The position numbers and the translations under genes are program-made. Positions 8,642 to 26,150 of a DNA stretch of 64,000 nucleotides are shown piece by piece. Position 1 is the stretch's first letter; every line of letters starts with the position of its first letter. The stretch lies in NCBI RefSeq assembly GCF_001664485.1, contig NZ_CP013632.1, positions 124,001 to 188,000 on the forward strand. Reading direction: 5' to 3'. Under the pieces are notes generated by a model. That model searched no databases. It was not told the DNA's origin and saw nothing but the letters and a program-made list of their open reading frames with translations. Source of the stretch: Rhizobium sp. N324. Its GTDB lineage: Bacteria; Pseudomonadota; Alphaproteobacteria; Rhizobiales; Rhizobiaceae.

Positions 8642-8653
8642 GCTAACGTTAGC
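8642..8653. promoter_or_regulatory. LacI-type operator GCTAACGTTAGC before the FAH gene
   Basis: A perfect 12-bp palindrome with a central CG, ending 17 bp before the chosen start codon. It is identical to copies at 9517, 17010 and 26139 and one base off copies at 11616 and 23273. The shape fits LacI-family operators, and a LacI regulator is encoded at 10338-11339. Confidence 0.85.
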
Positions 8654-8670
8654 AAAAAATGGAGATCAAT

Positions 8671-9444
8671 ATGAAGATTGTGCGCTACCGGGCCGTCGAC
8701 GGAATTCACTATGGGATCGAAACTGAGGATAGGATTGAGCGGATCGTCGGCGATCCGTTCGAGGCTGTCGAGCGGACGGGAAAGGTGGATCACCTTGCCG
8801 ACATCCGTCTGCTGTGCCCGGTCGAACGGCCCCGGATATTCGGCGTTGCCTACAATTACCGGCAGCACACTGACGAGTCCGGAAAAGAGCAGCCGACGCT
8901 TCCGGTGCTGTTCATGAAGCCGAGCACGGCAGCGAGCGGCAATGGAGATGCCATTGAATATCCGAGCGATGGCGAAATTGTTCATTACGAGGCCGAGCTG
9001 GTGGCCATCATCGGCAAAGGCGGGCGCCATATCGGCAAGGAGCAGGCCCTGCAGCACATTCTCGGCTACACATGCGGCAATGATATCAGCGACCGCATCA
9101 TCCAGCGGCAGGAAAGCAAGTTCGGCTGCCTGCTGGCCGGCAAGGGTTACGATACGTTTGCGCCGATGGGGCCGGCCATCGTCACGGATCTCGATCCGAC
9201 GAACCTTGACGTCATCCTTCGCCAGAACGGCACCGTGAAACAGTCGGGCAATACGCGAGACCTCGTCTATTCGGTTGCCGACATAGTTGCCTACTTGAGC
9301 CGCTTCATGACGCTGCTGCCCGGCGATGTGATCATGACCGGGACGCCCGCGGGCGTTGGGCCGATCATTCCCGGCGACGAACTCAAGGTAGAGATTCCCG
9401 GTATCGGCATCTTGACGAATCCAGTGGTTGCGGCACCGCACTAA
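8671..9444 (+). CDS. Fumarylacetoacetate hydrolase (FAH) family protein
   Basis: A 257-residue member of the FAH superfamily, whose members hydrolyse, decarboxylate or isomerise oxo-acid products of aromatic ring cleavage (for example HpaG-type steps or acylpyruvate hydrolysis). The active-site region is clear: FGVAYNYRQHTDE, then YPSDGEIVHYEAELVAIIG with the metal-binding Glu residues, GYTCGNDISDR, and the C-terminal VIMTGTPAGVGPIIPGDEL. The start at ATG 8671 follows GGAG by six bases; an ATG four codons upstream is possible. A perfect LacI-type operator overlaps its promoter region. With the VOC dioxygenase-like gene in the same regulon, a meta-cleavage role is plausible, but the substrate is unknown. 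Confidence 0.85.
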   Translation: MKIVRYRAVDGIHYGIETEDRIERIVGDPFEAVERTGKVDHLADIRLLCPVERPRIFGVAYNYRQHTDESGKEQPTLPVLFMKPSTAASGNGDAIEYPSDGEIVHYEAELVAIIGKGGRHIGKEQALQHILGYTCGNDISDRIIQRQESKFGCLLAGKGYDTFAPMGPAIVTDLDPTNLDVILRQNGTVKQSGNTRDLVYSVADIVAYLSRFMTLLPGDVIMTGTPAGVGPIIPGDELKVEIPGIGILTNPVVAAPH

Positions 9445-9516
9445 CCGGGGATTCTTGCAGGGGTTCGGCTGCGGCCGAAAATTCTGGTTGACCTCAGAAT
9501 CTCTGGCGCTATTAAT

Positions 9517-9528
9517 GCTAACGTTAGC
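9517..9528. promoter_or_regulatory. LacI-type operator GCTAACGTTAGC before the CMD-like gene
   Basis: Second perfect copy of the 12-bp palindrome, 77 bp before the start codon of the carboxymuconolactone decarboxylase-like gene. Confidence 0.85.
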
Positions 9529-9605: not shown

Positions 9606-10139
9606 ATGGCACGCGTAAAATATGTCTCGAATACCGAGCTGGCCGCGACGCAGCCAGCGCTCAATGAGCGCTTGCTGAAGGAGAGGAAAGTTCCGACCGG
9701 AAATATCTTCCTGGCGCTCGCCAACGCTCCCGCGATCCTCGATGATTTCCTCACTTACGCCAATGCGGTGCGGGCTGCCGACCTCAGCCCGAAGCTGCGG
9801 GAGATGGCAATCCTGACGGTCGGGTACTGCACAAACTCCGAATATGAGGTGAAGCATCACCACTCTCATGGGCTCAAGGCCGGCCTGACGGAGGAGCAGT
9901 TCCATGCAATTCCGCATTTCGAGACCTCGGATCTCTTTGACGAGCAGGAAAAGGCTGTGATGGCCTTTGCCAAGGAATCGACGCTGAACGTCGATGTTCC
10001 CGATGAGGTGTGGAACGGAGTCGCAAAGTTCCTGTCGGAGAAGCAACTTGTCGAGCTCTCGATCAACGTCGCTTGGTACAATTCCGGCGTTCGCCTCATG
10101 GGCGCATTGAAGATCGACCTTGAAGAGGGATACCGCTGA
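9606..10139 (+). CDS. Carboxymuconolactone decarboxylase / AhpD-like protein
   Basis: A 177-residue all-helical protein of the CMD/AhpD superfamily. The core helix reads LREMAILTVGYCTNSEYEVKHHHSHG, quoted in part, with the typical Glu and His positions but only one cysteine, so AhpD-type CxxC disulfide chemistry is not expected. Members include true gamma-carboxymuconolactone decarboxylases (usually about 130 residues) and many longer proteins of unknown activity like this one. It has its own operator at 9517-9528 and the ribosome binding site GGTGGAG before ATG 9606. An accessory step in aromatic or oxo-acid breakdown is inferred from context only. Confidence 0.8.
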   Translation: MARVKYVSNTELAATQPALNERLLKERKVPTGNIFLALANAPAILDDFLTYANAVRAADLSPKLREMAILTVGYCTNSEYEVKHHHSHGLKAGLTEEQFHAIPHFETSDLFDEQEKAVMAFAKESTLNVDVPDEVWNGVAKFLSEKQLVELSINVAWYNSGVRLMGALKIDLEEGYR

Positions 10140-10145
10140 GCAGCC

Positions 10146-10337: not shown

Positions 10338-11339
10338 TCACGGAGTGCCCGTGCTGCCGCGGATGACCAGGTGGGGCGGGGAGATGAAGCTGTAGGGCTT
10401 GCTGAGGTCGCCCTTGTTCTGAAGGTGGTGCAGGAACCAAAGTCCGCAGGCGGTCGCCAACTCCGAAACGGGCAATTGGACTGTCGTCAGTCCCGGACCC
10501 CACCACCGATACCCAAGCTCATCGCCAAATCCGACGACCGAAATATCTCGAGGGACGCTCAAGGCCTGGTCCTGGATTTCGTCAATGACGCCGGAGGTAT
10601 TTTGCACCGCGCCGATCACAAGCGCCGTCGGTCGATCCTTTAGGGAAAGGAGGCGGCGCACGGCCTCCCGTCCAAATTCGGGCAAGGAGGGCGCGCCAAG
10701 CTCCTCGTGAACGGTTATGGCTCGGCCGGCGCTTTTGACGGCGTCCCGGAAACCCTGCACGCGCGCCGCGCCGGTGGGCAGTTCTTCCGTGCCGCCGATA
10801 TAGGCGATGCGTTTGTGACCTGCGTTGATGATGTGTTCGGTGCTCTCGTAAAGCGCCCGTCTGTCATCGATCCCAAACCATTGGTCGCCGAGCAGCGGCG
10901 CCTTTCGCAGCAATTGGATATGCGGCGTCATCTTCAGGATTCGCGCGGAATCGGGATGAGGTTTTGCACTCGGGACCAGAATGATCCCGGCGACGTTGAC
11001 GCTCGTGAGTTCCCTGATGTGGCGAAGCTCGTGCATTCTGTCGTCATCGGTTTCGCACAAGGTCAGCTGGTAATTCGCCGACAGAAGGCACTGCGAGAGG
11101 GCGTGGGCAATCGTCGAATAAAAGCTGTTCCGGATATCTGGAACGATCAGCCCGACGAGATTGCTCTGCACCCCACGCATCATGCGTGCAGCACGATTGG
11201 CAACGTAGCCCGCTTGAGCGGCGGCTTCGTTCACCTTTCGCTTCATCTCCGCGCTGATGCGGCGATCGTCGGCCAGGGCGCGGCCCACGGTCGAGGGGGA
11301 AACTTGAAGTATCGCGGCGATGTCTTTAATTGTTACCAT
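10338..11339 (-). CDS. LacI family transcriptional regulator
   Basis: A 333-residue LacI/GalR-type repressor. The N-terminal helix-turn-helix and hinge are textbook (TIKDIAAILQVSPSTVGRAL, residues 3-22, then AAAQAGYVANRAARMMRG), followed by a periplasmic-binding-protein-like ligand domain (VGLIVPDIRNSFYSTIAHAL, later VVGFGDELGYRWWGPGLTTV). I chose the GTG/ATG-region start MVTIKD at 11337-11339 because LacI proteins begin just before this motif. It is transcribed away from the ABC transporter genes. The palindromes with central CG (GCTAACGTTAGC) in front of six transcription units around it are the expected kind of LacI-family site. That link and the ligand are inference. Confidence 0.92.
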   Translation of the reverse strand: MVTIKDIAAILQVSPSTVGRALADDRRISAEMKRKVNEAAAQAGYVANRAARMMRGVQSNLVGLIVPDIRNSFYSTIAHALSQCLLSANYQLTLCETDDDRMHELRHIRELTSVNVAGIILVPSAKPHPDSARILKMTPHIQLLRKAPLLGDQWFGIDDRRALYESTEHIINAGHKRIAYIGGTEELPTGAARVQGFRDAVKSAGRAITVHEELGAPSLPEFGREAVRRLLSLKDRPTALVIGAVQNTSGVIDEIQDQALSVPRDISVVGFGDELGYRWWGPGLTTVQLPVSELATACGLWFLHHLQNKGDLSKPYSFISPPHLVIRGSTGTP

Positions 11340-11579
11340 CGTGTCGAGCTCGGAATTGTCGCTTTGGCCAACGATAGCATTGGCGTCGCGGTTGTCAAAC
11401 CTTCTATACCGTTTAAGTAGCAATCATTTGATTTTTCGCCCCCATGACTTGGCCGGCGTCGCCGATCGCGATTTTAAGTAAAAATCTTTCAGACACTTAA
11501 GTCTATCGGTCGGGATTGCTGCGCCGACGGCGGCGCGCTCGCGCAGGCGCTTCGGAGCCAATTAACGTCGTCAAAGCCG
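11340..11579. other. Divergent intergenic region between lacI and the ABC operon
   Basis: No gene. The lacI side is AT-rich (around CATTTGATTTTT, 11428-11439) as expected for its promoter. A short palindrome ACTTAAGT lies near 11500. I see no GCTAACGTTAGC copy on the lacI side, so autoregulation through the same site is not evident. Confidence 0.5.
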
Positions 11580-11627
11580 TTGACAGGAGGCCCTTGCTGT
11601 GGCACGAATGTTTGTGCGAACGTTAGC
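11580..11627 (+). promoter_or_regulatory. Promoter element and operator variant of the ABC operon
   Basis: A TTGACA -35 hexamer sits at 11580-11585. The operator variant GCGAACGTTAGC, one base from the palindrome, is at 11616-11627 inside the longer context TGCGAACGTTAGCGCA. The -10 element is not clear. Confidence 0.6.
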
Positions 11628-11650
11628 GCAAGCGGGAGGAGGCATAACGT

Positions 11651-11707
11651 ATGGATATTCTGGTGTTCCTGGCATCGGTCATCACCTCAGCAGGGCGTGG
11701 ATCCTGA
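11651..11707 (+). CDS. Possible leader peptide overlapping livH
   Basis: An 18-residue open frame, MDILVFLASVITSAGRGS, follows a GGGAGGAGG ribosome binding site. Its TGA shares its final A with the ATG of the permease (TGATG). The permease itself has no other good ribosome binding site, so translation of this short frame may deliver ribosomes to it. It could also be a decayed older N-terminus. Confidence 0.45.
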   Translation: MDILVFLASVITSAGRGS

Positions 11708-12552
11708 TGACCGCCGCTCTCTTCTTGCAATCCGCTGTTGGCGGCGTCCTGTTGGGCGGGATCTATGGCCTGCTGGCGATGGGTCTCAGCCTGAGCTGGG
11801 GCCTGTTGAGGCTGGTGAATCTCAGCCACTTCGCGCTGGCTTTCCTTGGCGCTTACCTGACCTACCAACTCGGCACCGTTTATGGCGTTCCGGCATTCTT
11901 GAGCGCTCTTCTGATTGCACCGCTGTTCTTTGCGCTCGGCGTTGCCCTGCACAGCGTGTTCGTGCGCTTCAAGGTGAAGGAGTTCGCCTCTCTGCTGGTG
12001 ACGTTCGGCGTCACGATCCTGATCGAGTCGCTGATCCAATGGGTCTGGTCGGCCGACTTCCTTCGTTACGAAACACCCTATGCCCAAACCACCATCCGGC
12101 TCGGCCCGATCTTCGTGCCCGTGCTGGACCTTTCGGCCTTTGTCTGCGCCGGCGTGCTTGCTGGGGGCGCCTGGTACGCGTTGAACAGGACCATGCTCGG
12201 CAAGGCGCTGCGTGCCGCTGCCCATGACGCCCCCGTAGCGTCAGCATTCGGAATCAATGCCACGCGTGTGTCATATATTCTGGCCGGCCTTTGCTCGGCG
12301 ACAGCCGGGATCGCCGGCGTCTTCATTGCCCTGATCGGAACTTTGGCGCCATCTCAAATCGAGGCCTGGATCGGCGTCGTATTTGCTGTCGCCATCATTG
12401 GCGGATTGGGCAGCCCCATCGGGGCGCTGGGTGCCGGAGTGCTGATTGGCGTGGCCGAGAGCCTTACCATGTCCGTCGTCAATCCCGCCTGGGCGCCGCT
12501 CGTGGCATTCAGCGTGCTCATCGTCATCCTCCTGCGTAAACCGGTGATTTGA
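11707..12552 (+). CDS. Branched-chain-type ABC transporter permease (LivH family)
   Basis: A 281-residue inner-membrane permease of the hydrophobic amino acid transporter (HAAT) family. The N-terminal VGGVLLGGIYGLLAMGLSLSWGLLRLVNLSH is diagnostic for LivH (quoted in part), as is the later GINATRVSYILAGLCSATAGIAG region. Such systems import branched-chain amino acids, amides or aromatic acids. The start at ATG 11707 restores the normal LivH N-terminus. It overlaps the TTG/stop junction with the next gene closely (stop 12550-12552, next ATG 12555), so the genes are co-translated. The operator variant upstream places it in the LacI regulon. Confidence 0.9.
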   Translation: MTAALFLQSAVGGVLLGGIYGLLAMGLSLSWGLLRLVNLSHFALAFLGAYLTYQLGTVYGVPAFLSALLIAPLFFALGVALHSVFVRFKVKEFASLLVTFGVTILIESLIQWVWSADFLRYETPYAQTTIRLGPIFVPVLDLSAFVCAGVLAGGAWYALNRTMLGKALRAAAHDAPVASAFGINATRVSYILAGLCSATAGIAGVFIALIGTLAPSQIEAWIGVVFAVAIIGGLGSPIGALGAGVLIGVAESLTMSVVNPAWAPLVAFSVLIVILLRKPVI

Positions 12553-12554
12553 CC

Positions 12555-14297
12555 ATGAAAAAGCTTCTCATCACAGCACCGATCGTGGCGATTTTGGCCT
12601 CGCTGCCTTATCTGGGAATGGCGGATTACTACCTTTCCTACCTGTACATCATCTTCTTCTGGGTCGTGCTGGCAACGAGCTGGGGCATCCTCAGCGGTTA
12701 CACGGGCTACTGGAGCTTTGGTCACGCCGCATTCTTCGGGATTGGTGTCTATACGACGGCCACGCTGACGACGCAGTTGTCCTGGCCTTTCGTCGCCACG
12801 ATTCCTGCCGCGGCCCTGCTGGCGGCCGCGGTCGCCGTCCTGATTGGCTTGGTCGTCTTTCGCTCAGGCGCTCTGCGCGGTGAGTTTTTTGCGCTGCTGA
12901 CTCTGTCGGTGACGTTTGTCATCGCGGCCATTGTGTCGAACACCTCTCTGGACTCCGGCACAGGCGTCTTCCTCTCGGGGATCGAAATCCCGATGATCGG
13001 CGCGACGGCGTCCGGTTCCCTTTATATGTTCGGGCTTATCGCGGCTCTTGCGGCGCTGGCCACCTCATACTTCATCTTTCACAGCAAATTCGGTCTGGGC
13101 TTGCTGGCAATCCACGACGATGAAGACGTCGCAGAGGTGAAGGGCGTTCCGACGTTCCGCTATAAGCTGATCTCGTTTGCCGTCTCGTCGGCGCTTGCCG
13201 GCGCAATGGGTGCGATCCACGCCGTATATGTCGGATACGTCACGGTTGGTGAGACATTTGCTGTGACCGTGCCCCTCTATGTCGTGCTCATGAGCATTCT
13301 TGGCGGTGCGCGCCATTGGGCCGGGCCTGCGATCGGCGCGGTCATGATCACCGTGCTGCAGAGCGCTATCGTCAGCGGCGCTCATGCGGAATTCGGCCGT
13401 GCGGGCGTGGCTCTTGCGCTGATCGTCGTCATTCTGGTGCTGCCGTCAGGCATCGTTCCCAGCCTTATTCGCAGGTTCGCCGGCAAACGCAGCGGAATTG
13501 GCGCAGCTAAGGCGGCTGCCCAGGCCGTTACTGAGCTCGCCCCGTCAACCGCGGCAGGTTCGGATCCGGTGCTTCTCAAATGCGAGGATGTCACGAAGTC
13601 CTTTGGCGGTATCCGCGCCTTAACCGGCGTGAGCTTGGACGTCTGGCGGGGCGAAATCCTAGCCCTGGTTGGGCCGAATGGCTCCGGCAAATCCACACTG
13701 ATCAACATGATCAGCGGCCACTACGCCATGACCTCAGGTACGATCACTCTCGAGGGCGAGGAGATCTCCGGTCGATCACCGCACTGGATCGCGCAGCAGG
13801 GCGTGGCGCGGACCTACCAGATCCCGCGTTTGTTCGACAATCTGAGCGTCCTCGAAAACGTTGAGCTCTGCGCGAAATTCGGCAGTGCGGATGGCATGGG
13901 CGCGGCTGCGACCGACGCAGTCGCCAGGCAGGCGCTCGCCTTCACCGGCCTGGCCGACAAGGCCACCGTTCTGCCCGACGCACTGAACCTGCATGACCGG
14001 AAGTTTGTCGAATTCGCCAGGGCGCTGGCTGCAAAACCGCGGCTGCTCCTGCTCGACGAGGTGCTTTGCGGCTTGAATCCGGCCGAGGTCGACCACGCGG
14101 TCGAAATGATCAAGCGGATCAAGGCCGGCGGTACGACGATCATCTTCGTCGAACATCTCATGAGGGCGGTTGTCGCGCTGGCGGACCGTGTCGCGGTGCT
14201 GGATCAGGGCAAAGTTCTGGCGCTTGGACAACCAAGCGAAACGATGCGGGATCCGGCAGTGGTCCGCGTATATCTGGGAGGCAGTCATGCTGCTTGA
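12555..14297 (+). CDS. Fused LivM-type permease and LivG-type ATPase
   Basis: A 580-residue fusion. Residues 1 to about 310 form a LivM permease (SWGILSGYTGYWSFGHAAFFGIGVY is the typical signature, quoted in part), ending in a basic linker and an Ala-rich stretch near 325-340. Residues from about 345 form an ABC ATPase with Walker A GPNGSGKST and Walker B LLLLDEVLCGLNP, plus the LivG-specific VARTYQIPRLFDNLSVLENV region. The ABC signature, normally LSGGQ-like, reads LNLHDRKFVEFARAL, a divergent form seen in some LivG-type proteins. It supplies one permease and one ATPase of the importer whose other parts are livH, livF and the binding protein at 18124. Confidence 0.9.
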   Translation: MKKLLITAPIVAILASLPYLGMADYYLSYLYIIFFWVVLATSWGILSGYTGYWSFGHAAFFGIGVYTTATLTTQLSWPFVATIPAAALLAAAVAVLIGLVVFRSGALRGEFFALLTLSVTFVIAAIVSNTSLDSGTGVFLSGIEIPMIGATASGSLYMFGLIAALAALATSYFIFHSKFGLGLLAIHDDEDVAEVKGVPTFRYKLISFAVSSALAGAMGAIHAVYVGYVTVGETFAVTVPLYVVLMSILGGARHWAGPAIGAVMITVLQSAIVSGAHAEFGRAGVALALIVVILVLPSGIVPSLIRRFAGKRSGIGAAKAAAQAVTELAPSTAAGSDPVLLKCEDVTKSFGGIRALTGVSLDVWRGEILALVGPNGSGKSTLINMISGHYAMTSGTITLEGEEISGRSPHWIAQQGVARTYQIPRLFDNLSVLENVELCAKFGSADGMGAAATDAVARQALAFTGLADKATVLPDALNLHDRKFVEFARALAAKPRLLLLDEVLCGLNPAEVDHAVEMIKRIKAGGTTIIFVEHLMRAVVALADRVAVLDQGKVLALGQPSETMRDPAVVRVYLGGSHAA

Positions 14298-14994
14298 GGT
14301 CGATAGGATCGAGGTCGGCTACGGAGATGCGATCGCTCTGTGGGACCTGTCCATCAGTGTAAGGCCAGGCGAGATTGTTTCGGTCGTCGGCCCGAACGGC
14401 GCGGGCAAGAGCACGCTGGTAAACGCCATCGCCGGCATTCTTCGGCCGCACAAAGGAAAGATCGTTATCGAGGGTAACGACGTTTCGAAAGTGCCGAGCC
14501 ACCGGGTCTGCGACTACGGCATAGCGGTGGTCCCGGAAGGGCGCCGTCTCTTCACTGCGATGACGGTCCTCGATAACCTGCTGCTCGGTGCCTACCGCTC
14601 GCTCGCTCGTGCGGAGCGCGACGCCACGCTCGCTGAGGTGTTTCAGCTTTTCCCTGTTTTGAAAGAGCGCCAGGCTTCATTGGCTGGCTCCTTGTCGGGC
14701 GGGCAGCAGCAGATGGTGGCGATCGGCCGCGGCCTGATGGCCAAGCCGCGCGTGCTGCTCATGGACGAGCCGTCGCTCGGGCTGTCGCCGTTGATCGTCG
14801 GTGAAATGTTCAAAATCATCCAGATGATCAACGAGCGAGGCGTAGCCGTGCTGCTCGTTGAGCAGAACGTCAACAAGGCGCTGGAAATCGCCCATCAGGC
14901 CTACGTGATCGAGCAGGGCCGCGTGACGGCCTCCGGAGCGCCTGAGGTTCTCGTCAACGATCCAAGCATCAGGGAGGCCTATCTTGGCATCTGA
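14287..14994 (+). CDS. ABC transporter ATP-binding protein (LivF family)
   Basis: A 235-residue ATPase with Walker A GPNGAGKST, signature LSGGQQQMVAIGRGL and Walker B VLLMDEPSLGLSP, all canonical. The LivF hallmark YGIAVVPEGRRLFTAMTVLDN is present. The start ATG 14287 overlaps the end of the LivMG fusion by 11 nt. It completes the importer with livH and the fused livMG; a Tat-exported binding protein lies 3 kb downstream in the same region. Confidence 0.92.
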   Translation: MLLEVDRIEVGYGDAIALWDLSISVRPGEIVSVVGPNGAGKSTLVNAIAGILRPHKGKIVIEGNDVSKVPSHRVCDYGIAVVPEGRRLFTAMTVLDNLLLGAYRSLARAERDATLAEVFQLFPVLKERQASLAGSLSGGQQQMVAIGRGLMAKPRVLLMDEPSLGLSPLIVGEMFKIIQMINERGVAVLLVEQNVNKALEIAHQAYVIEQGRVTASGAPEVLVNDPSIREAYLGI

Positions 14995-15562
14995 AACGTC
15001 GAGCGGGAGAGTCCCCGTGCATATTAGGCGCGTTGTGACCGAGCACGGCAATAAGGGTGCTGCCAGCTTCGCTGAGGACGGCGCCGCGCCGCGCACGGAT
15101 ATATTCAGGACGGTCCCTGGATTGGTGTCGCGGATGATCTGGTCGACGTCGGCTTCGACGGCCGTGCCGTTCAACGGAACCGATCCCACTTCGCAGGTGA
15201 CAAGCTTCGTCCCGGAACCCGGCGAAACGCGGTTTTTAGTGCTAACGTTCCCACCGGATGCCGTTTTTATGTCGCCGGACTTTGACGGTCCGGCAGCTAT
15301 GGCGGAGAATCTGGCGGTCAGTCCCGGTTTGGCCGAACGCTTTGAACCGGATGGCAAACATCAAACGCCCACCGTCGATTATGGAATCGTTCTCGACGGC
15401 GAGATCTGGATGGAACTCGACGATGGCAACGAGACGCGCTTGGGCCAGTTCGACGCCTTCGTACAGAATGGAACGCGCCATGCCTGGCGAAACAAAAGCG
15501 ACAGACCGGCAACCATCGCCGTGGTGCTGGTTGGCGCACGGACCGCCGATACGACGGATTAA
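14984..15562 (+). CDS. Cupin-domain protein
   Basis: A 192-residue protein ending in a cupin barrel: the motif region YGIVLDGEIWMELDDGNETRLGQFDAFVQNGTRHAWRN, quoted in part, has the conserved Gly, Glu and His positions. The start is a TTG at 14984 that overlaps livF by 11 nt and has AGGGAGG six bases upstream. Cupins of this type occur beside aromatic catabolic genes as small metal-dependent enzymes or binding proteins; the activity here is unknown. A sequence resembling half of the LacI operator (GCTAACGTT near 15240) lies inside the coding region and is probably chance. Confidence 0.75.
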   Translation: MASETSSGRVPVHIRRVVTEHGNKGAASFAEDGAAPRTDIFRTVPGLVSRMIWSTSASTAVPFNGTDPTSQVTSFVPEPGETRFLVLTFPPDAVFMSPDFDGPAAMAENLAVSPGLAERFEPDGKHQTPTVDYGIVLDGEIWMELDDGNETRLGQFDAFVQNGTRHAWRNKSDRPATIAVVLVGARTADTTD

Positions 15563-17040: not shown

Positions 17041-18042
17041 ATGCTTCCGGCTGTTAATTTGAAACCTCCCTTCAACATCACGCGCTTCAGCCATGTCGTG
17101 CTTGAGGTCAATGATGTGGGACGCAGCCGGGATTTCTATGTCAATGTCGGCGGCCTCGTCGAAACGGAATTCGAAGATGGTGTCTCCTACCTTCGCGGAC
17201 TGTCAGAGGCCTGTCACCACAGCCTGGTGCTCGCACCCGCCGGCGGCAAGCCGGCGTGCAGGCGGATCGGTTACAGGGTGTTCCTGGAGGAGGATCTGGA
17301 CAAGGCCAAGGTCTTCTTCGAGGAGAAGGGGCTTCCGGCGGAATGGATCGACGTTCGAAACCAGGGGCGGACCCTGCTTGTCAGCGATCCCTCGGGGGCT
17401 CGCATCGAGCTTTGCTCCAGCATGAGCGTTCATCCCCGCAAGTTTCTCGAAGTGCATGAACATCGCGGCGCCCGGGCCCAGGGGCTCGACCATTGCCAGG
17501 TCATCGTCGCCGATCCGCTGGGTCTGAGCGCCTTCTATGGCGAACTCGGTTTCCGGACGTCGGAATATATCGCGGCGGGCGACGATCTCATTGCGAACTT
17601 CATGTATCGCAAAGGTGTCTGCCTCGACCTGGCCCTGGTGCCCGGCATCGGCCCGCAGCTGCATCATTTTGCTTATACGGTTCCCGAAAGCAGCGACATC
17701 TTCGCCGTCTGCGACTTTGCCAGCCGTTACGGATATGGAGACAGCGTCGAGCGAGGGCCTGGCCGTCATGGCCCTTCGGGAGTCCTGTTCGTCTATCTGC
17801 GCGATCCGGATGGCCACCGGGTGGAGTTCTTCAACAATCACTACACCACGATAGATGCGGAATTGGAGCCCATTCGCTGGGACGCGGCATCTCTGAGCAC
17901 CAATGTCCATTGGGGCATGCCGGCCGTCTCGAAGTGGTTCTTCGAGGCCAGCGAATTTACGGGAGTACCGCTGGAGCACCCCGAGAGAATGCCGAACCCG
18001 ATGACGCTGGAACGCTACGCGGAAGGGCTCGCGAAGAGCTGA
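17041..18042 (+). CDS. Extradiol-dioxygenase-like VOC protein (two-domain)
   Basis: A 333-residue protein with two vicinal-oxygen-chelate domains, resembling type I extradiol dioxygenases such as 3,4-dihydroxyphenylacetate 2,3-dioxygenase. The C-terminal domain keeps a 2-His-1-carboxylate iron site: His151 (GLDHCQVIV), His209 or 208 (LHHFAYTV) and Glu262 (DPDGHRVEFF), with spacing close to that of the known enzymes. The ATG at 17008 lies inside the operator, so the ATG at 17041 with GAGGATGAC upstream is the start. It should open a catechol-type ring between or beside hydroxyls, and the FAH-family gene could act on the product. The precise substrate cannot be read from sequence. Confidence 0.85.
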   Translation: MLPAVNLKPPFNITRFSHVVLEVNDVGRSRDFYVNVGGLVETEFEDGVSYLRGLSEACHHSLVLAPAGGKPACRRIGYRVFLEEDLDKAKVFFEEKGLPAEWIDVRNQGRTLLVSDPSGARIELCSSMSVHPRKFLEVHEHRGARAQGLDHCQVIVADPLGLSAFYGELGFRTSEYIAAGDDLIANFMYRKGVCLDLALVPGIGPQLHHFAYTVPESSDIFAVCDFASRYGYGDSVERGPGRHGPSGVLFVYLRDPDGHRVEFFNNHYTTIDAELEPIRWDAASLSTNVHWGMPAVSKWFFEASEFTGVPLEHPERMPNPMTLERYAEGLAKS

Positions 18043-19433: not shown

Positions 19434-20564
19434 ATGGTTAAAACTATGATCGCCGCCCGGCTGCATGCTCTGCATCAGCCGATGTCGTTGGATGAGATTC
19501 CGGTTCCCACGCCCCGGCCCAACGACGTCCTGGTGCAGGTCAGGGCTTGCGGTATCGTGCCCAACATGGCCAACGTCATCAATAACTGGCCAACCTGGTT
19601 TCCCCACCAGCCGCTGCCGAAGTTTCCGGCAGTGTTCGGCCTGGATCCGGCCGGGGTCGTCGCCGAAGTGGGCGAGGCGGTCACCAATGTCAAAATTGGC
19701 GATCGTGTTTATGTCAGCCCTCTCAGATCCTGTGGTTCCTGCAAGGCGTGCCGGTCAGGCAACCGCAGCCAATGCCGCTACTACACCTTGAACGGCTACT
19801 TCAGCACCAGCCGCGATGGTCAAAGAATCTTCGATCTTTATCCCTATGGCGGCTTCAGCCAGTACATGACTGCCCCGGAATATTCACTCGTGTGCCTGCC
19901 GGATAATCTCAGCTTCGAACAGGCCGGCCGCTTCGGCTATCTCGGCACATCCTACGGCGCCCTGAAGAATGCACAGGCCGGACCCGGCCAAGTTTGCCTC
20001 ATCGACGGGATTACCGGCACGCTTGGCGTCGCGGCTACCAAGCTCGCTCTCGCCATGGGCCTCTCCAAAATTCTGGGCACCGGCAGAAACAAGGAATTGA
20101 TGGACCGCATAAAGGCCATCGCTCCCGATCGCATCGACACGATCATGCTCGGCGAGGGCTCGACCGGAGAATGGGCAAAGGCCCAAACCGGCGGCGAGGG
20201 GGTGGATTTCGTCATCAGCGCGCTGGGTGCCAGAGCCCCCGCCGCGACCGTGGTCGATTCCATGCGCGGCGTTCGTCGAGGCGGCCGTGTGGTTGTGGTT
20301 GGCGGCGTCGCGGAAGATGTTCCTGTTGATGTGAAGTGGCTGATGGACGAGCAGGTTCAGCTCATCGGCTCTAACTGGTTCAGCGCTGCCCAGGGGCAGG
20401 AAATGGCCGACATGGTCCGCACCGGTGCGCTCGACCTCTCCTATCTCGAGCACAAGGTCTATCCGCTCGAGCGGGTGAACGAAGCCATCTCCGGCATCGG
20501 CGAACGCGATGGCGGCTTCAGCAACTACGTGGTCGTTCCGCCGGTTCCCGCCGTCTGGCAATAA
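19434..20564 (+). CDS. MDR-superfamily dehydrogenase, paralogue of the one at 5410
   Basis: A 376-residue MDR protein closely related to the product of 5410-6516: both share the ACGxVPNxANV, FPYGGF-like and VDVKWxMDEQ segments. Structural zinc cysteines are at 100, 103, 106 and 114. As in its paralogue, the catalytic GHE is replaced by GLD (Leu70-Asp71), while Cys39 remains. The nucleotide-binding motif reads GITGTLGVAATKLALAMG. The ribosome binding site GGAGGAG precedes ATG 19434. It follows the binding-protein gene and is probably part of the same transcript. An oxidoreductase step in the regulon's pathway is inferred; the substrate is unknown. Confidence 0.85.
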   Translation: MVKTMIAARLHALHQPMSLDEIPVPTPRPNDVLVQVRACGIVPNMANVINNWPTWFPHQPLPKFPAVFGLDPAGVVAEVGEAVTNVKIGDRVYVSPLRSCGSCKACRSGNRSQCRYYTLNGYFSTSRDGQRIFDLYPYGGFSQYMTAPEYSLVCLPDNLSFEQAGRFGYLGTSYGALKNAQAGPGQVCLIDGITGTLGVAATKLALAMGLSKILGTGRNKELMDRIKAIAPDRIDTIMLGEGSTGEWAKAQTGGEGVDFVISALGARAPAATVVDSMRGVRRGGRVVVVGGVAEDVPVDVKWLMDEQVQLIGSNWFSAAQGQEMADMVRTGALDLSYLEHKVYPLERVNEAISGIGERDGGFSNYVVVPPVPAVWQ

Positions 20565-20617: not shown

Positions 20618-21169
20618 ATGTCCAAGAAAGATATCGCGGTCCTGGTCGGGAGCCTTCGTCAGGCTTCGATCAACCTGAAATTCGCCCGTGCCATGCAGAA
20701 AGTGGCGCCTGACGGATTGAACCTGGAAATCGTGCCGATCGGCGACCTTCCGCTCTATAACCAGGACCTTGAGACCGAAACGCCGCCGGTGGAATGGTCG
20801 TCCTTCCGCGAGCGCATCAAGGCTTGCGATGGCGCAATCTTCGTGACGCCGGAATATAATAGATCCGTGCCTGCGGCATTGAAGAATGCGATCGAAGTCG
20901 GCTCCCGGCCGTATGGGAATAGCGTGTGGGATCACAAGCCCGGCGCGGTGACCGGCGCTTCTCCCGGTCTCATCGGCGGCGCAGCGGCAGCACTTCAGCT
21001 CCGAGTTATCCTGACCAACATCAACGTGCCGACTATGCCCCAGCCTGAAGTTTACCTCAGCACGGCCGACAAATTGGTGGGCGACCATGGGATATTCCTC
21101 AACGAAGGAACCCAGAAGTTCATCGAGAGCTTCCTGGTTGCGTTCGAAAGCTGGGTCGCCCGGTTCTGA
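20618..21169 (+). CDS. NADPH-dependent FMN reductase
   Basis: A 183-residue flavodoxin-like protein of the NADPH-dependent FMN reductase family. The phosphate-binding loop GSLRQASINLKFARAM and the TPEYNRSVPAALKNAIE motif are characteristic, and PGLIGGAAAALQLR matches the second flavin contact. Such enzymes supply reduced flavin to monooxygenases or reduce quinones and azo compounds. No flavin-dependent monooxygenase is visible in the window, so a direct quinone-reducing role is equally likely. It is the last plus-strand gene of the regulon, followed by a terminator. Confidence 0.9.
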   Translation: MSKKDIAVLVGSLRQASINLKFARAMQKVAPDGLNLEIVPIGDLPLYNQDLETETPPVEWSSFRERIKACDGAIFVTPEYNRSVPAALKNAIEVGSRPYGNSVWDHKPGAVTGASPGLIGGAAAALQLRVILTNINVPTMPQPEVYLSTADKLVGDHGIFLNEGTQKFIESFLVAFESWVARF

Positions 21170-21274: not shown

Positions 21275-22270
21275 TTACGGAAACCAGGCCTGCGCCACGT
21301 CAGCGAGCTTTTGCGGAGGCGACGCGATCAATGGAATAGCAGCCTTGCGGACCGCCTCGCGCTGGCATTCGTCGCTTATGTATTCGACGGGCGATTTGCC
21401 ATCGACCCGGGCGAGGAAGAGGGTGGGCAGCAGGCTTGCGGCCCGGGCCTCGAGAGCGTCCCGATCTTCCCAATCGACCTGATCCATGTAGGCTGCCGTC
21501 AAGGCCGCGAATGACGATGCGAGCTCGGATGCCGCCTTTGCGGCAACGATCTTCTTCAGCAGCAGATGGTTCAGGCAGAAGGCCAGGTCGAAAGCCGGAT
21601 CGCCGAACCAGGCGCATTCGGCATCGAGGAACACAGGGCCGTTCCTGCCCAGCAGGATGTTCTTCGGGCTGACGTCGCCATGGACCAGCGCCAGCTTTGT
21701 TTCGGCCGTGCGCTGAACCAACTCGGCCAGGCGATCGCTGACGAAAGGATGTTTGGCGGCAGTCGCCACCAGGTAGGGCTCCAGCCGAAGCGCAAAGAAG
21801 TTCGATCCGGAGTCAAATTTTTCCGGCAACCCCGGAGTGCGGGCACTGACGGAATGGATCTGTCCAATCCGCTGGCCAATGACCTCTGCCGCCTTTCGGT
21901 CGACGCTCCCATGAAGCAGGTTGGTCTTCCAGAGCGGGTAGTCGTCGCTCGGAAGAAACTCCATTGCGAAAACACCAGACGGCCCGTCGTGCGCGAGAGG
22001 CTTCGGAACGGCGGAAGGGAAATGCTCGGCCACGAAGGAGATCCAGTTCCATTCGTATAGATTTCTCGACACCGGCGCCTGCCAATCGGCGGATACTTTA
22101 AGCTTGGCAAGTGCGCGTTTCACGCAGATAAGCCGGCCGGGAAGCTCCACGCGGTAGATATCTGAAGAAACGCCACCCGTCAGGGGCTTATAGATCGCTT
22201 CCTCGGAAGCGCTCTTCAGGCCGCTCTTCAGCAGGAAATCGTCGAAAATCGTGGTCTCGGCTGCAGACAT
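21275..22270 (-). CDS. APH-fold small-molecule kinase
   Basis: A 331-residue protein of the aminoglycoside phosphotransferase/choline kinase superfamily. The catalytic loop LVHGDVSPKNILLGRNG and the magnesium-binding FLDAECAWFGDPAFDLAFCL are intact, so it should be an active kinase. In bacteria this fold phosphorylates many hydroxyl compounds (methylthioribose, homoserine, choline and others) besides antibiotics. Because it is co-transcribed with a D-2-hydroxyacid dehydrogenase (21-bp gap) under a LacI-type operator, a metabolic substrate, perhaps a hydroxy acid, is more likely than a drug. The substrate cannot be read from the sequence. Confidence 0.85.
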   Translation of the reverse strand: MSAAETTIFDDFLLKSGLKSASEEAIYKPLTGGVSSDIYRVELPGRLICVKRALAKLKVSADWQAPVSRNLYEWNWISFVAEHFPSAVPKPLAHDGPSGVFAMEFLPSDDYPLWKTNLLHGSVDRKAAEVIGQRIGQIHSVSARTPGLPEKFDSGSNFFALRLEPYLVATAAKHPFVSDRLAELVQRTAETKLALVHGDVSPKNILLGRNGPVFLDAECAWFGDPAFDLAFCLNHLLLKKIVAAKAASELASSFAALTAAYMDQVDWEDRDALEARAASLLPTLFLARVDGKSPVEYISDECQREAVRKAAIPLIASPPQKLADVAQAWFP

Positions 22271-22291: not shown

Positions 22292-23254
22292 TTAGCGGCG
22301 GGGGCTGTTGCGGGCTTGTTCGGGCATCTCTCCAGAGAGAACCCTGACGACCTCTTCTGCTGCCCGGCGGCGCAGCTCGATCAGCGAGGCATCCGAGGAG
22401 AAGGCGACATGCGGCGTGATCATCGCGCCCGGGTGAGCAATCAACTCCGGGGGAACGCGTGGCTCATCCTCGAGCACATCGAGGCCGACACCGCTCAGAA
22501 TGCCGGCGGCCAAGCCCTCGATCACGGCGGCGGTATCCACGACGCCGCCTCGGCTGACGTTGATCAGCAGGCTTCCACGCCGCATCTTCGAGATGGCGTC
22601 CCTGTTGATCAGATGACGCGTCGCAGGCGAAAGCGGCGCATGGACAATGACGATATCGCTCTTGGCCAGAAGCGTATCGAAGTCGGCAAGCTCCACATTA
22701 TCAGGCACGTTCGAGGCATGGGGATCGTGCGCCGTCACGCGGCATCCCAGCGCCTGCATCTTTGCCGCCGTCGCACGGCCGATGCGACCGAAGCCGACGA
22801 TGCCGCAGGTCAGTTCCGAAAGCCGGCGGAGATTTGCCGAAGCCGGGTCCCAGCGGCCATCGCGAACCTCGCGATCGAAGTGGATCAGGCCGCGGGCCCA
22901 GGCAATTGCAAAGCCGATGGCATGATCGGACACTTCCGTGACGCAGTAGTCGGGCACGTTCGTGACCCATATTCCCCGCTCGGTGGCCGCATCGACGGCA
23001 ATATTGTCCAGGCCGACTCCGAGACGCGCGACGATCTTGAGATTGGGAGATGCAGCGATCGCCGTCTCGCTGACCTGAGCCCAGCAGGTCAGGATGGCGT
23101 CCGGCTTATGCTCTGCGGCCAAAGCGTCGATATCGGAAGAGGGCGACGGCTCGGCAGGGCCGCTGACGAGGGTAAACCCGGCTCCCTCGATCACCTCCCG
23201 CTCCACCTTGTCATCCGGCCAGGCGTAGTCCGTCAACAGTACGGTCCGCGTCAT
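22292..23254 (-). CDS. D-2-hydroxyacid dehydrogenase (CtBP/phosphoglycerate dehydrogenase-like)
   Basis: A 320-residue NAD-dependent D-2-hydroxyacid dehydrogenase. The nucleotide-binding motif CGIVGFGRIGRATAAKMQAL is clear. The catalytic Arg lies at RLGVGLDNI/NVSRGGVVD, Glu at DVLEDEP and His at ITPHVAF. These enzymes interconvert 2-oxo acids and D-2-hydroxy acids, for example hydroxypyruvate and D-glycerate. A GGGAGG ribosome binding site precedes ATG 23254, and an operator variant lies 18 bp upstream. It is the first gene of a two-gene unit with the APH-fold kinase. A hydroxypyruvate or glyoxylate reductase role is one option among several. Confidence 0.9.
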   Translation of the reverse strand: MTRTVLLTDYAWPDDKVEREVIEGAGFTLVSGPAEPSPSSDIDALAAEHKPDAILTCWAQVSETAIAASPNLKIVARLGVGLDNIAVDAATERGIWVTNVPDYCVTEVSDHAIGFAIAWARGLIHFDREVRDGRWDPASANLRRLSELTCGIVGFGRIGRATAAKMQALGCRVTAHDPHASNVPDNVELADFDTLLAKSDIVIVHAPLSPATRHLINRDAISKMRRGSLLINVSRGGVVDTAAVIEGLAAGILSGVGLDVLEDEPRVPPELIAHPGAMITPHVAFSSDASLIELRRRAAEEVVRVLSGEMPEQARNSPRR

Positions 23255-23272: not shown

Positions 23273-23284
23273 GCAAACGTTAGC
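23273..23284. promoter_or_regulatory. LacI-type operator variant before the dehydrogenase-kinase unit
   Basis: GCAAACGTTAGC, one base from the palindrome, in the context GTGCAAACGTTAGCGCAA. It lies between the PEP carboxylase stop codon and the dehydrogenase start, 18 bp from the latter. Confidence 0.75.
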
Positions 23285-23342
23285 GCAATAATTTCACCGT
23301 GGTCAAGAAAAATAGGCTGACGCCATCCGCATTGACGGCTCG

Positions 23343-26123
23343 CTAGCCGCTGTTTCGCAGCCCGGCGGCGATTCCATTGATGGTCAGGTGCAGCGCCTCC
23401 TCCGTATCCTGATCTCGTTCTCCGGCGCGGTGGCGGCGAAGAAGGTCGATCTGCATGTGGTTCAGTGGATCGAGGCATGGAAAGCGATGATGGATCGACT
23501 GCTTCAACGCCGGATTATTCTCCAGGAGCGAGGCCTGATCCGTTATGTCGAACAATGCGGCCGTCGTCGCTTCCCATTCGTCTTTTATGCGTGCGAAGAT
23601 TTTCTCGTGGGCGGATGCATCAGGGGCGAGGGCCACGTAGCCTGCCGCGATCGTCATGTTGGTTTTGGCCAGCACCATCTCCATGTTGGCGATCAGCGTC
23701 TGAAAGAAAGGCCAATCCCGACGCATCCTTTGAAGAGTTTGCAATCCGTCGGGGTGTCTGGCCAGCCACTGTCCGATGGCCGAGCCAAATCCAAACCAGC
23801 CCGGCAGCATGATGCGGCTTTGCGACCAGCCGAACACCCATGGGATCGCGCGAAGGTCTTCGATGCGGTGAGACGAACTGCGTGAGGCTGGGCGGCTGCC
23901 AATGTTCAGTTTTGCGATTTCGCCAATGATTGTGGCTTCCCAGAAGAACCGTTCAAATCCTTCGGTCTCGTAAACCAAAGAGCGATAGGCGGCAAAAGCG
24001 AGCTCGGACAGCTCTTCCATGGCGTCGAGATATTCGGGATCCGGCTCGTGTGCGTCGGAAGGCAGTAAAGACGCTTCCAGCGTCGCGGCGATCAGCAGTT
24101 CCAGATTTCGCCGGCCGAGTGCTTGATTGGAATATTTCGCTGCAATGACTTCGCCTTGTTCCGTCAGCCGGATCGATCCGGCAACCGCGCCGGGCGGCAG
24201 GGCGGTGATGGCCTCATAGCTCGGACCGCCGCCGCGGCCTACGGAGCCGCCGCGGCCGTGAAACAGGCTGAGGCGAATGCCCTCACGCTCGAAAAGCCGA
24301 ATGAAGGCCATCTCTGCCTTATAAAGTTCCCATCCCGACGTCAGATAACCGCCGTCCTTGTTGCTGTCGGAATAGCCGAGCATGATTTCCTGTTTGCCGC
24401 CGAGCGCCTTCAAGTATGTGCGATAAGCTTCTGTGGCCAAAACCGTCTGCATCACGTCATGCGAGTTTCGAAGATCCGAGATTGTCTCGAAAAGCGGTAT
24501 GATGTTGACTGACGCCGCTTCTGGCTCATCGGGCCGGAACATTCCCACCTCGCGGAATAGGATCATGACCTCGAGAAGGTCGGAAGGGCTTGCCGCCTTC
24601 GAGATGATGTAATTCGGGATGCTGGCGCTGCCATAATGCTTATGCGCCTCGGCGGCTTCACGCAGGACGGATAGCTCCGACATCGTCTCGGCCGAATAGG
24701 TCTTGAGCGGTGTAACCAGCAGCTGGGAGGAGCGGAGTTCCTCGGTGAGCAAGCGGATCCTGTCGCTCTCGGCGAGCGCTTCATAGCTTGTGCCGGGGCG
24801 CACGTTCTCGAAAAGCTCATGAATAACCCGCTGATGAACCTCGGAATTCTGTCTCAGATCGAGGCTGACAAGGTGAAAGCCGAAGACGTCTACGGCGCGT
24901 TGGAGGTTGCGCAGCTTCCCAGCGGCGATCTTTTCTGCGCCATTGGCTTTTAGCGATTTGCTGATCGTCGCCAGGTCTGCGGCGAATTCTGTAGGGTTCT
25001 GGTAGCGAGGGGCGGCGGCTACAGGTTCGCGAACCAGCTCCGTGCTGCCGAATTTACGGGCCGTGGCCGCCAGGCGAGCATAGATACCCGAGATCGCCAA
25101 GCGATATGGCTCGTGCCGGCGTTGCTCCGATCTATCGGGAGAGACGGTCGCGAGGCGCTGAAGGTCCCGCGAGACCTTCACATACCGATCATCCAAGGAA
25201 AGTTCGGCGCCAAGGCTGTGCAGCTCGCCGAGATAGAACGAGAAAACTCTCTCACTCTGCAGCCGGAGCGCCTCCCTCAGGGTCTCGCCGTTGACATAGG
25301 GATTGCCATCCCTGTCGCCGCCGATCCACGAACCCATGCGCAGGAATGGCGGCAGCGCGTCATGACCGAAGCTCCAGGGCGAGGCTCGAAGCTGATTTTC
25401 GAGAGCCCCATAAACTTCCGGGATGACGCGGAAAATGGTACTGTCGTAATAGGACAGGCCATTGAGGATTTCGTCCACGACCTGCAGCCGCCGCCCTCGC
25501 AGGCTGTTCGTTTGCCAAAGCGTCGTCGTCGCTCTTTCCAAATCCTCCCGATATCGATCCGCCTCCTGCGCCGTCAGGCCGGCATGGTCGAGCCGGCTCA
25601 AGCATCGTGCAAGCTCCTGCTCGATGTCGATAACGCTCTTTCGCCGAACCTCGGTGGGGTGCGCGGTAAAAACGGGCGAGACGATCGCTTCCGACAGCAG
25701 CTTACGGATATCCTCCACCTCTACGCCGGCGGCAGCGAGAACCGAAAGCGATCTGGCAATCGTTCCCGGCATGGCAGGTTCGCCATCGGCGATGCCGAAG
25801 CGCTGCACTCTGGCCTGATGAGCGTCTTCGGCGATGTTTACGAGCTGAGAGAACTGGCTGAACGCGCGGATCACGCGCTTCAGGGTGCGGGGAGGCATGT
25901 CTGCGCAGAAGGGGGCGAGTTCGCCGTTCAGGCGTGGGCTGGTCTTTCTGCGGCCGGTTACCGAGAGGGCGCGGACGCGTTCTACGGTCTCCCGGGTCTC
26001 CCTGCCGTCGCTGGCTTCAATGGCTTCGCACAAAAGGCGGCCGAGCAGTCGAACATCCTTCACCAGGGCCCTGGCCGTGAGGCGCCTTCCCGGCATGCCT
26101 GTTTTTCTCACTTGAAGATCCAC
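23343..26123 (-). CDS. ppc: Phosphoenolpyruvate carboxylase
   Basis: A 926-residue PEP carboxylase, which makes oxaloacetate from PEP and bicarbonate. Conserved motifs are present: VFTAHPTEVRRKSV, GSWIGGDRDGNPYV, LGYSDSNKDGGYL, FHGRGGSVGRGGGP and RLTEQGEVIAAKY. The C-terminus ends RNSG where RNTG is usual. The start is a GTG at 26121-26123 with AAGGA upstream, because longer frames read through the operator; this gives the normal family length. Regulation is unusual: a perfect copy of the LacI-type operator (26139-26150) lies 15 bp upstream, so this enzyme appears to belong to the catabolic regulon rather than to constant housekeeping. Whether another ppc exists elsewhere cannot be seen. Confidence 0.93.
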   Translation of the reverse strand: MDLQVRKTGMPGRRLTARALVKDVRLLGRLLCEAIEASDGRETRETVERVRALSVTGRRKTSPRLNGELAPFCADMPPRTLKRVIRAFSQFSQLVNIAEDAHQARVQRFGIADGEPAMPGTIARSLSVLAAAGVEVEDIRKLLSEAIVSPVFTAHPTEVRRKSVIDIEQELARCLSRLDHAGLTAQEADRYREDLERATTTLWQTNSLRGRRLQVVDEILNGLSYYDSTIFRVIPEVYGALENQLRASPWSFGHDALPPFLRMGSWIGGDRDGNPYVNGETLREALRLQSERVFSFYLGELHSLGAELSLDDRYVKVSRDLQRLATVSPDRSEQRRHEPYRLAISGIYARLAATARKFGSTELVREPVAAAPRYQNPTEFAADLATISKSLKANGAEKIAAGKLRNLQRAVDVFGFHLVSLDLRQNSEVHQRVIHELFENVRPGTSYEALAESDRIRLLTEELRSSQLLVTPLKTYSAETMSELSVLREAAEAHKHYGSASIPNYIISKAASPSDLLEVMILFREVGMFRPDEPEAASVNIIPLFETISDLRNSHDVMQTVLATEAYRTYLKALGGKQEIMLGYSDSNKDGGYLTSGWELYKAEMAFIRLFEREGIRLSLFHGRGGSVGRGGGPSYEAITALPPGAVAGSIRLTEQGEVIAAKYSNQALGRRNLELLIAATLEASLLPSDAHEPDPEYLDAMEELSELAFAAYRSLVYETEGFERFFWEATIIGEIAKLNIGSRPASRSSSHRIEDLRAIPWVFGWSQSRIMLPGWFGFGSAIGQWLARHPDGLQTLQRMRRDWPFFQTLIANMEMVLAKTNMTIAAGYVALAPDASAHEKIFARIKDEWEATTAALFDITDQASLLENNPALKQSIHHRFPCLDPLNHMQIDLLRRHRAGERDQDTEEALHLTINGIAAGLRNSG

Positions 26124-26138
26124 ATGTGCATTCCTTAT

Positions 26139-26150
26139 GCTAACGTTAGC
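26139..26150. promoter_or_regulatory. LacI-type operator GCTAACGTTAGC before ppc
   Basis: Perfect copy of the palindrome, extended to ATGCTAACGTTAGCAT (16 bp). It lies just upstream of the GTG start of ppc and presumably overlaps its promoter. Confidence 0.85.

Follow-up and report, generated by a model that had tools for sequence, protein, structure and literature searches.

The window analyzed here, a 64,000-nucleotide stretch of DNA from Rhizobium sp. N324, contains a gene for a LacI-family regulator that lies among repeated copies of the 12-bp palindrome GCTAACGTTAGC. The genes and sites almost certainly form one regulon, as predicted from their arrangement and conservation, and the regulator, the site and the gene set are common to three bacterial classes in two phyla. 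We propose that the regulon is probably a LacI-repressed ring-cleavage catabolic unit that ends at phosphoenolpyruvate (PEP) and oxaloacetate. Shared conserved sites, enzyme families, a linkage of kinase to enolase and a PEP carboxylase (PEPC) that is confined to the cluster in the sampled genus are seen directly; from these features, we infer the binding, the repression, the inducer, the aromatic substrate and each chemical step.

Palindromic sites and their rarity in the genome

A single-LacI regulon had been suggested from the window alone (hereafter the original prediction). It is now supported by the genome-wide rarity of the site, by footprints in 16 loci, by the joint movement of sites and genes in Pararhizobium and by cross-phylum orthologs that are accompanied by the same or a sister palindrome. 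The sites and the regulator gene of the window are as follows.

8642..8653, no strand: operator 1, perfect, before the gene of a fumarylacetoacetate-hydrolase-family enzyme (FAH)
9517..9528, no strand: operator 2, perfect, before the gene of a carboxymuconolactone-decarboxylase-family protein (CMD)
10338..11339, minus strand: LacI-family regulator (PF00356, PF13377, PF00532); orthologs at 55–65% in other clusters
11367..11378, no strand: operator 7, two mismatches, GCCAACGATAGC, in the lacI promoter, 27 bases before lacI
11616..11627, no strand: operator 3, one mismatch (perfect in L017, L037 and L041), before LivH
15241..15252, no strand: possible internal operator, two mismatches, inside the cupin gene, before eno2
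17010..17021, no strand: operator 4, perfect, overlapping the -10 box, before the HpaD-like gene
23273..23284, no strand: operator 5, one mismatch, before the D-2-hydroxyacid dehydrogenase (HADH) gene
26139..26150, no strand: operator 6, perfect, before the PEPC gene

The six sites that had been listed at first, namely the four perfect copies of GCTAACGTTAGC and the one-mismatch forms at 11616 (GCGAACGTTAGC) and 23273 (GCAAACGTTAGC), are all recovered by our scan of the window. The accompanying statement that nothing else in the window is convincing overlooked GCCAACGATAGC at 11367, and the sites number at least seven when lacI's own is included. Each of the six stands in front of a gene or operon as described, at 17, 77, 79, 19, 18 and 21 bases from the starts of FAH, CMD, LivH, HpaD, HADH and PEPC, respectively, where the LivH and PEPC starts are our choice. 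The regulon comprises 14 target genes plus lacI by our count, in place of about 16.

How rare is the palindrome elsewhere? The 6,972,593-base genome contains four perfect places, all within the same 17.5 kb, and the uniform chance that four perfect sites share one such stretch is ~6e-8. One-mismatch places number three, of which two belong to the cluster and the third (C1:3506451) is internal to a reading frame that spans 702 codons or more; a reversed control pattern finds 44 genome places at up to one mismatch. This whole-genome scan reveals no similar frequency of the motif in unrelated regions, and together with the footprinting described below, it rules out a chance origin of the sites, which the original prediction had already considered very unlikely. 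When up to three mismatches are allowed, the window is unremarkable (21 matches versus 15.6 expected, with 21 reached in 9 of 100 shuffles), and the signal therefore resides in the perfect and one-mismatch sites.

A perfect site is also present in 10 of the 297 genomes of the order. Three of them hold the cluster (the genome analyzed here, G023 and G187), and the other seven carry a single perfect site each. In four of these seven genomes, two of which belong to one genus, the lone palindrome adjoins a different LacI-family gene (25–27% identity). Such lone copies fit a LacI-type operator, yet they indicate that the motif is not private to the cluster LacI.

Conservation and promoter layout of the sites in 16 loci

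The cluster also occurs on plasmids of Rhizobium sp. CIAT894, R. indicum, Rhizobium sp. CB3060 and CB3171, and Pararhizobium sp. A13, and we compared 16 loci in total (the window, L008–L017 from ten Rhizobium genomes and the five plasmid loci L037–L041). A site with up to two mismatches is located upstream of LivH, HpaD, HADH and LacI in all 16 loci and upstream of FAH and CMD in 15. The remaining locus, L039 of Pararhizobium, has no site within 260 bp of either gene, as its FAH match is partial and its CMD gene is relocated behind HpaD. PEPC is preceded by a site in 12 of the 14 loci that hold the gene; of the two exceptions, L014 ends inside the gene and L016 has a truncated gene. The 12-mers exhibit mean pairwise identities of 0.94–1.00 versus 0.32–0.64 in the 45 bp upstream and 0.39–0.90 in the 20 bp downstream, where the flank values comprise only two sequences for HpaD (the source of the 0.90) and three for HADH and exclude FAH because its site is too near the gene. 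The predicted operators are thus conserved islands amid diverging flanks.

The sites are positioned close to putative promoters. As stated in the original prediction, site 17010 overlaps the -10 box of a TTGACA/TATGCT promoter, and TTGAC is found 19–20 bases before this site in 16 of 16 loci. The distance from TTGAC to the site is 14–20 bases for FAH, lacI, HpaD and HADH, 22–23 for CMD and 25–30 for LivH and PEPC; no TTGAC was found before CMD of L037 and L041 or before lacI of L039. All 15 Rhizobium loci have GCTATCGTTGGC (read toward lacI) in the lacI promoter, and Pararhizobium L039 has a variant of it there, which suggests that lacI is probably autoregulated. According to profile matches, the regulator has a LacI helix-turn-helix and a periplasmic-binding-like domain, and it very likely acts by repression.

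The two-mismatch site inside the cupin gene may be an eighth operator. All of its 12 columns are invariant in 14 Rhizobium loci, a degree of conservation shared by 0.9% of the gene's 12-mers (L041 was omitted from this comparison, given its partial cupin match), and the site was not seen in Pararhizobium L039. A second, perfect operator precedes HADH by 156 or 208 bp at L037 27166 and L041 26025, two loci from which PEPC is absent. This extra operator may be a relic of the PEPC operator; its core extension is similar to that of the latter and its flanks are dissimilar. In the window, a short leader open reading frame with a strong ribosome-binding site (11651-11706) precedes LivH, and not all relatives retain its start codon.

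The cluster in Pararhizobium, Betaproteobacteria and Rhodococcus

In Pararhizobium sp. A13, FAH is inverted, CMD is located behind HpaD and lacI stands beside PEPC. The palindromes of this locus (11762, 11883, 17209, 17320, 24296, 24439 and 28279) precede the regrouped units, with CMD lacking a site of its own and the lacI site at 24439 differing from the perfect palindrome at two positions.

With the kinase of the cluster as the query, a protein search pointed to plasmids of Rhodococcus, Cupriavidus and Paraburkholderia. We included 18 of the 23 plasmid records (those of Rhizobium Pop5, NXC24, the older PD630, one A. brasilense and Persicobacter were omitted), and in 17 of these, the examined stretch encodes a variant enolase, Eno2; the Enterobacter record, whose kinase is related at 35%, has no enolase annotated beside the kinase. 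Rhodococcus opacus PD630 (L104) and R. pseudokoreensis (L105) encode LacI (55%), HpaD (62–63%), CMD (58%), the zinc-type alcohol dehydrogenase (ADH, 74–75%), HADH (67%), the kinase (52%), Eno2 (47%), the cupin protein (43%), PEPC (45%) and FAH-type proteins, and each locus has six sites, mostly GCTATCGATAGC or GCTAACGATAGC. The LacI proteins of Cupriavidus (L106 and L108) and Paraburkholderia (L107) are related at 64–65%, and each of these loci carries three perfect copies of GCTAACGTTAGC in addition to near ones. Members of the site class GCTAWCGWTAGC, with no more than one mismatch, number 6–8 per locus versus a mean of 0.15–0.25 in first-order Markov sequences, as calculated with 20 sequences per locus for L039, L104, L106 and L107 and with a site class that was drawn after the Rhodococcus sites had been seen. 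The sites of L039, L106, L107 and L108, outside Rhizobium proper, are often paired at 67–154 bp, an arrangement that suggests DNA looping.

The comparison of LacI ortholog neighborhoods proposed with the original prediction thus yields, for Cupriavidus, Paraburkholderia and Rhodococcus, the same gene set together with either the same palindrome or a sister form, and a Rhizobium-specific feature is ruled out. The regulon had also been described as joining genes not normally regulated together. The list is indeed mixed, but it is not an odd mixture of separate pathways: the same enzymes are found together across phyla and thus most simply represent one catabolic pathway rather than a cross-pathway regulon. 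The importer type varies, being of the ATP-binding cassette (ABC) type in rhizobia and of the major facilitator superfamily (MFS) in Rhodococcus, Cupriavidus and Paraburkholderia. In regulators that use the GCTAAC half-site, the recognition helix reads SPST[VI]GR; in Rhodococcus, where most sites are of the GCTATC type, it reads SVSTVGR. Both groups have the hinge AARMMRG. Given that there are only two helix classes, this covariation of helix and site is suggestive.

Ring-cleavage, transport and reductase genes

The predicted regulon includes the following enzyme and transport genes, listed apart from the kinase, enolase and PEPC genes.

8671..9444, plus strand: FAH (PF01557); nearest NCBIfam model HpaG-C-term, below cut-off
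9606..10139, plus strand: CMD (PF02627)
11707..12552, plus strand: LivH-type permease, start chosen by us (PF02653 on the longer reading 11599-12552)
12549..14297, plus strand: LivM-LivG fusion of permease and ATPase (PF02653 and PF00005)
14287..14994, plus strand: LivF-type ATPase (PF00005)
14984..15562, plus strand: cupin protein, start uncertain (PF07883)
17041..18042, plus strand: HpaD-like extradiol dioxygenase of the VOC type (PF00903), below the HpaD cut-off
18124..19341, plus strand: HAAT-type solute-binding protein (PF13458)
19434..20564, plus strand: ADH (PF08240); 74–83% in other clusters
20618..21169, plus strand: NADPH-dependent FMN reductase family protein, a possible quinone reductase (PF03358)
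22292..23254, minus strand: HADH (PF02826)

The pathway likely includes ring cleavage. The HpaD-like protein aligns over its full length with the homoprotocatechuate dioxygenase chain 5bwg_A and keeps the two-His-one-Glu metal ligands, at positions that we take to be the ligand sites of that chain. Its score of 275.4 bits versus the TIGR02295 cut-off of 321.4 falls short of an HpaD equivalog. The Rhodococcus clusters add a pair of genes that resemble HsaA/HsaB or HPA hydroxylase, which speaks for an aromatic substrate. The Rhodococcus MFS transporter does not decide the substrate, since the D-galactonate, phosphoglycerate and aromatic-acid subfamilies score about equally and all below cut-off. 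HADH is nearest to phosphoglycerate dehydrogenases and glyoxylate/hydroxypyruvate reductases. Relatives of the FMN reductase family protein occur at 33–35% in L106 and L108, and none was found in L104, L105 or L107.

A kinase–enolase module with a variant active site

The enolase and kinase genes of the cluster are as follows.

15626..16942, plus strand: variant enolase (Eno2), E168D and H373A in yeast numbering (TIGR01060, 504.6 bits)
21275..22270, minus strand: APH-family small-molecule kinase (PF01636), near or beside Eno2 in other genomes

Eno2 scores well above the curated TIGR01060 cut-off of 300 bits, and the other enolase copy of the genome scores 674 bits. Position 168 is Asp and position 373 is Ala in 26 of 26 Eno2-type sequences (20 sequences plus six more from Cupriavidus, Paraburkholderia, Azospirillum, Sinorhizobium and Caballeronia), and the canonical enolase of the genome has Glu and His at these positions. 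E168 and H373 (yeast numbering) are catalytic residues of enolase. Residues H159, E211, D246, E295, D320 and K345 are retained in the first 20 sequences. The kinase has the APH fold only, with no glycerate kinase among its matches.

The kinase and the enolase are linked beyond this cluster. Eight of the 250 genomes of another family (f77, tentatively placed in Burkholderiales) contain an Eno2-type gene (E ≤1e-150), and the APH kinase is adjacent in all eight, one of which (L091) is cut by a contig end. A PanE/ApbA-type reductase gene, assigned with Pfam, lies directly upstream of the kinase–enolase pair in five of the eight; among the remaining loci, L075 is similar by eye and L086 gave no match in the frames tried. 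The arrangement looks like a reductase–kinase–enolase module with an exchangeable reductase type. In Paracoccus and Roseibium, the pair is accompanied by FAH, short-chain dehydrogenase/reductase (SDR) and sugar transport genes beside another LacI (30–31%).

PEP carboxylase as a recurrent member of the cluster

23343..26117, minus strand: PEPC, approximate start at the GTG at 26117 (PF00311, 1040.7 bits, profile positions 2-919 of 919)

PEPC matches PF00311 over its full length and is the sole copy found in the genome. In a sample of 120 Rhizobium genomes from a larger group, 16 encode the cluster LacI and 15 encode PEPC, the latter being a subset of the former. All 15 PEPC genes lie between HADH/APH and the LysR gene next to the cluster, and 14 have a perfect operator just upstream. 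In the fifteenth (G187, L055/L016, Rhizobium sp. CF122), the operator and ~250 residues of the N terminus have been lost.

A common origin is rejected for the PEPCs of the rhizobial, Cupriavidus and Rhodococcus clusters, with a p-AU of 2e-72 against a single clade. The tree requires at least three changes: the rhizobial cluster PEPCs group with those of Azospirillum and Skermanella, the rhodococcal ones group with other Rhodococcus PEPCs, and the placement of the Cupriavidus PEPCs on long branches is weakly supported. The tree contains 19 rows hand-picked from plasmid hits and one protein search, including three long-branched reference rows, and the nearest Rhodococcus references (such as P0248) were entered regardless of their own gene context. 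We read this pattern as repeated uptake of PEPC into one regulon; alternatively, an older cluster PEPC may have been replaced by local copies. A Cupriavidus taiwanensis plasmid (L111) carries another cluster around PEP, in which PEPC, enolase, pyruvate kinase and NADP-dependent glyceraldehyde-3-phosphate dehydrogenase genes stand beside a GntR regulator.

Proposed pathway and its alternatives

We propose that the LacI-family repressor would bind the GCTAACGTTAGC palindrome, with its central CG, at or just behind the -10 box of the six promoters and of its own promoter, and that the catabolic unit would remain silent until a pathway-derived inducer frees the repressor. The ABC transporter would then import the compound, and the HpaD-like extradiol dioxygenase would open it. 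The FAH, CMD, cupin, ADH and FMN-reductase-like proteins would process the ring-opening product to release a C3 fragment, most likely hydroxypyruvate or glycerate, which would be reduced by HADH, phosphorylated by the APH-type kinase and dehydrated by the variant enolase to PEP. Finally, PEPC would convert PEP to oxaloacetate. The specific branch from hydroxypyruvate through glycerate, 2-phosphoglycerate and PEP to oxaloacetate is evenly poised in our judgment. The most complete version, an undescribed route in alpha- and betaproteobacteria and Rhodococcus that is controlled by one LacI/operator system, proceeds from ring cleavage to PEP via reductase, APH kinase and variant enolase, and acquired PEPC independently at least three times, is put forward tentatively.

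Several observations weigh against this proposal. The HpaD, FAH and HADH proteins score below every NCBIfam cut-off listed, so their substrates are not fixed by these matches, and LacI-family regulators mostly sense sugars, not aromatics, as described in a regulon survey (PMC4052901). PEPC is missing in G313 (one of the 16 LacI-bearing Rhizobium genomes), is truncated in G187 and was not found in L037, L041 or the Paraburkholderia locus, so the cluster does not depend on its presence. The distance from the PEPC start to the closest site is ~490–810 bp in Rhodococcus and Cupriavidus, which makes PEPC control less sure there than in Rhizobium. The 16 loci are not independent, as L008 stems from almost the same strain as the window and L037 and L041 are alike. 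Moreover, the motif alone does not name its regulator. The main doubt concerns Eno2, which lacks two canonical active-site residues and may therefore act not on 2-phosphoglycerate but on another stereoisomer or a longer compound.

This doubt leads to the alternative that we regard as a serious, if less than probable, possibility, in which a genuine regulon would include a kinase and a variant enolase that use another substrate (L-glycerate and L-2-phosphoglycerate, for example, or some longer 2,3-dihydroxyacid), with PEPC only as an anaplerotic helper. The invariant E168D and H373A substitutions, which the canonical enolase lacks, would be explained, as would the existence of a dedicated enolase that seems superfluous for D-2-phosphoglycerate, the clusters without PEPC and the company that the pair keeps in Paracoccus and Roseibium (FAH, SDR and sugar ABC genes). 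However, the reductase partner is a D-2-hydroxyacid dehydrogenase in Rhizobium, Rhodococcus, Cupriavidus and Paraburkholderia or a PanE-type enzyme in five of the eight f77 loci, and the recruitment of cluster PEPCs from at least three sources favors PEP as the product.

It is unlikely that the VOC enzyme cleaves no aromatic ring and that the route degrades a sugar acid, a cyclitol or another enediol. The LacI type of the regulator, the diketo-sugar-acid hydrolases among the FAH relatives and the reuse of the kinase–enolase pair beside sugar transporters are compatible with such a route, but the full-model HpaD match with its kept metal ligands and the HsaA/HsaB-like hydroxylase pair of Rhodococcus point to ring cleavage. 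Activation of some units by LacI, in place of repression, is very unlikely; sites that lie 77–79 bases before the first gene and paired sites 67–154 bp apart in other genera could serve an activator, but sites that follow TTGAC by 14–30 bases, at or behind the -10 box, form the usual arrangement for repression. It is hardly credible that the palindromes serve PckR, a LacI-family protein predicted to regulate central carbon genes in rhizobia (PMC4052901), or another paralog with the linked lacI as a bystander, because, despite the lone palindromes beside other LacI-family genes in four of seven other genomes (two of one genus), the linked lacI has a conserved site at its own promoter and accompanies the cluster and the sites across phyla, and the perfect and one-mismatch sites of the genome are confined to the cluster, bar one within a reading frame.

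Relation to known systems

Local LacI-family catabolic regulons resemble the system described here in the clustering of regulator and targets, the even palindrome with a central CG and autoregulation, according to the main text of the survey (PMC4052901), in which the word "aromatic" is absent. They differ in that the targets here look like aromatic ring cleavage and PEP handling and in that the regulator, site and gene set span three classes in two phyla. PckR (Rhizobiales), GapR and FruR/Cra also belong to the LacI family and reach enolase or PEP-node genes. The survey, which describes PckR, GapR and GluR, presents such regulators as global and centered on sugar metabolism, whereas the present system is confined to one catabolic cluster that has its own enolase copy; we set PckR apart by this description.

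The homoprotocatechuate (Hpa) meta-cleavage pathway shares an HpaD-like extradiol dioxygenase and an HpaG-like FAH enzyme with the cluster. However, the cluster proteins do not reach the HpaD and HpaG cut-offs, and the cluster genes scanned include none that resembles HpaE, HpaH or HpaI; a kinase and an enolase are present instead. The lower serine cycle consists of hydroxypyruvate reductase, glycerate 2-kinase, enolase and PEPC, and the reaction order that we propose is identical. The two differ in that the cluster uses an APH-family kinase and a variant enolase, whose genes reside in a probable ring-cleavage cluster. In the open-access PMC literature, the scope of our search (subscription papers and RegPrecise lay outside it), we found neither GCTAACGTTAGC nor a precedent for the gene set.

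A single regulator and a single palindrome allow a prediction of the genes that act together and thereby define a testable pathway. The proposal opens possible new roles for an enolase-family branch annotated plainly as phosphopyruvate hydratase and for kinases annotated as aminoglycoside phosphotransferases, and it offers a reason why PEPC occurs in a minority of Rhizobium species. If true, Rhizobium PEPC, classically anaplerotic, would be a catabolic accessory under an inducible repressor, and the repeated recruitment of this enzyme to one regulon would provide a clean natural experiment on how pathways are assembled.

Genes flanking the regulon

A gene resembling that of S-formylglutathione hydrolase (6831-7661, named by eye), with a reading frame broken midway, precedes the regulon and is flanked by a zinc alcohol dehydrogenase gene, ADH1 (5410-6516), and a GFA-type gene (7718-8290), both also named by eye. 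The formaldehyde-type genes ADH1 and GFA were rejected as regulon members, as they have no operator. GFA was not found in the ~1.3–1.6 kb before the first operator in L008–L017 or in the ~8 kb in L038 and L040. On the other side (26228-33000), the window contains an operon with LysR, acyl-CoA dehydrogenase, 3-hydroxyacyl-CoA dehydrogenase, ETF-QO and CoA-transferase genes. This operon (26228 onward) was likewise rejected, since no operator precedes it in the window. Parts of this operon also adjoin the cluster in L037, L039, L105 and L107, which include Pararhizobium, Paraburkholderia and Rhodococcus.

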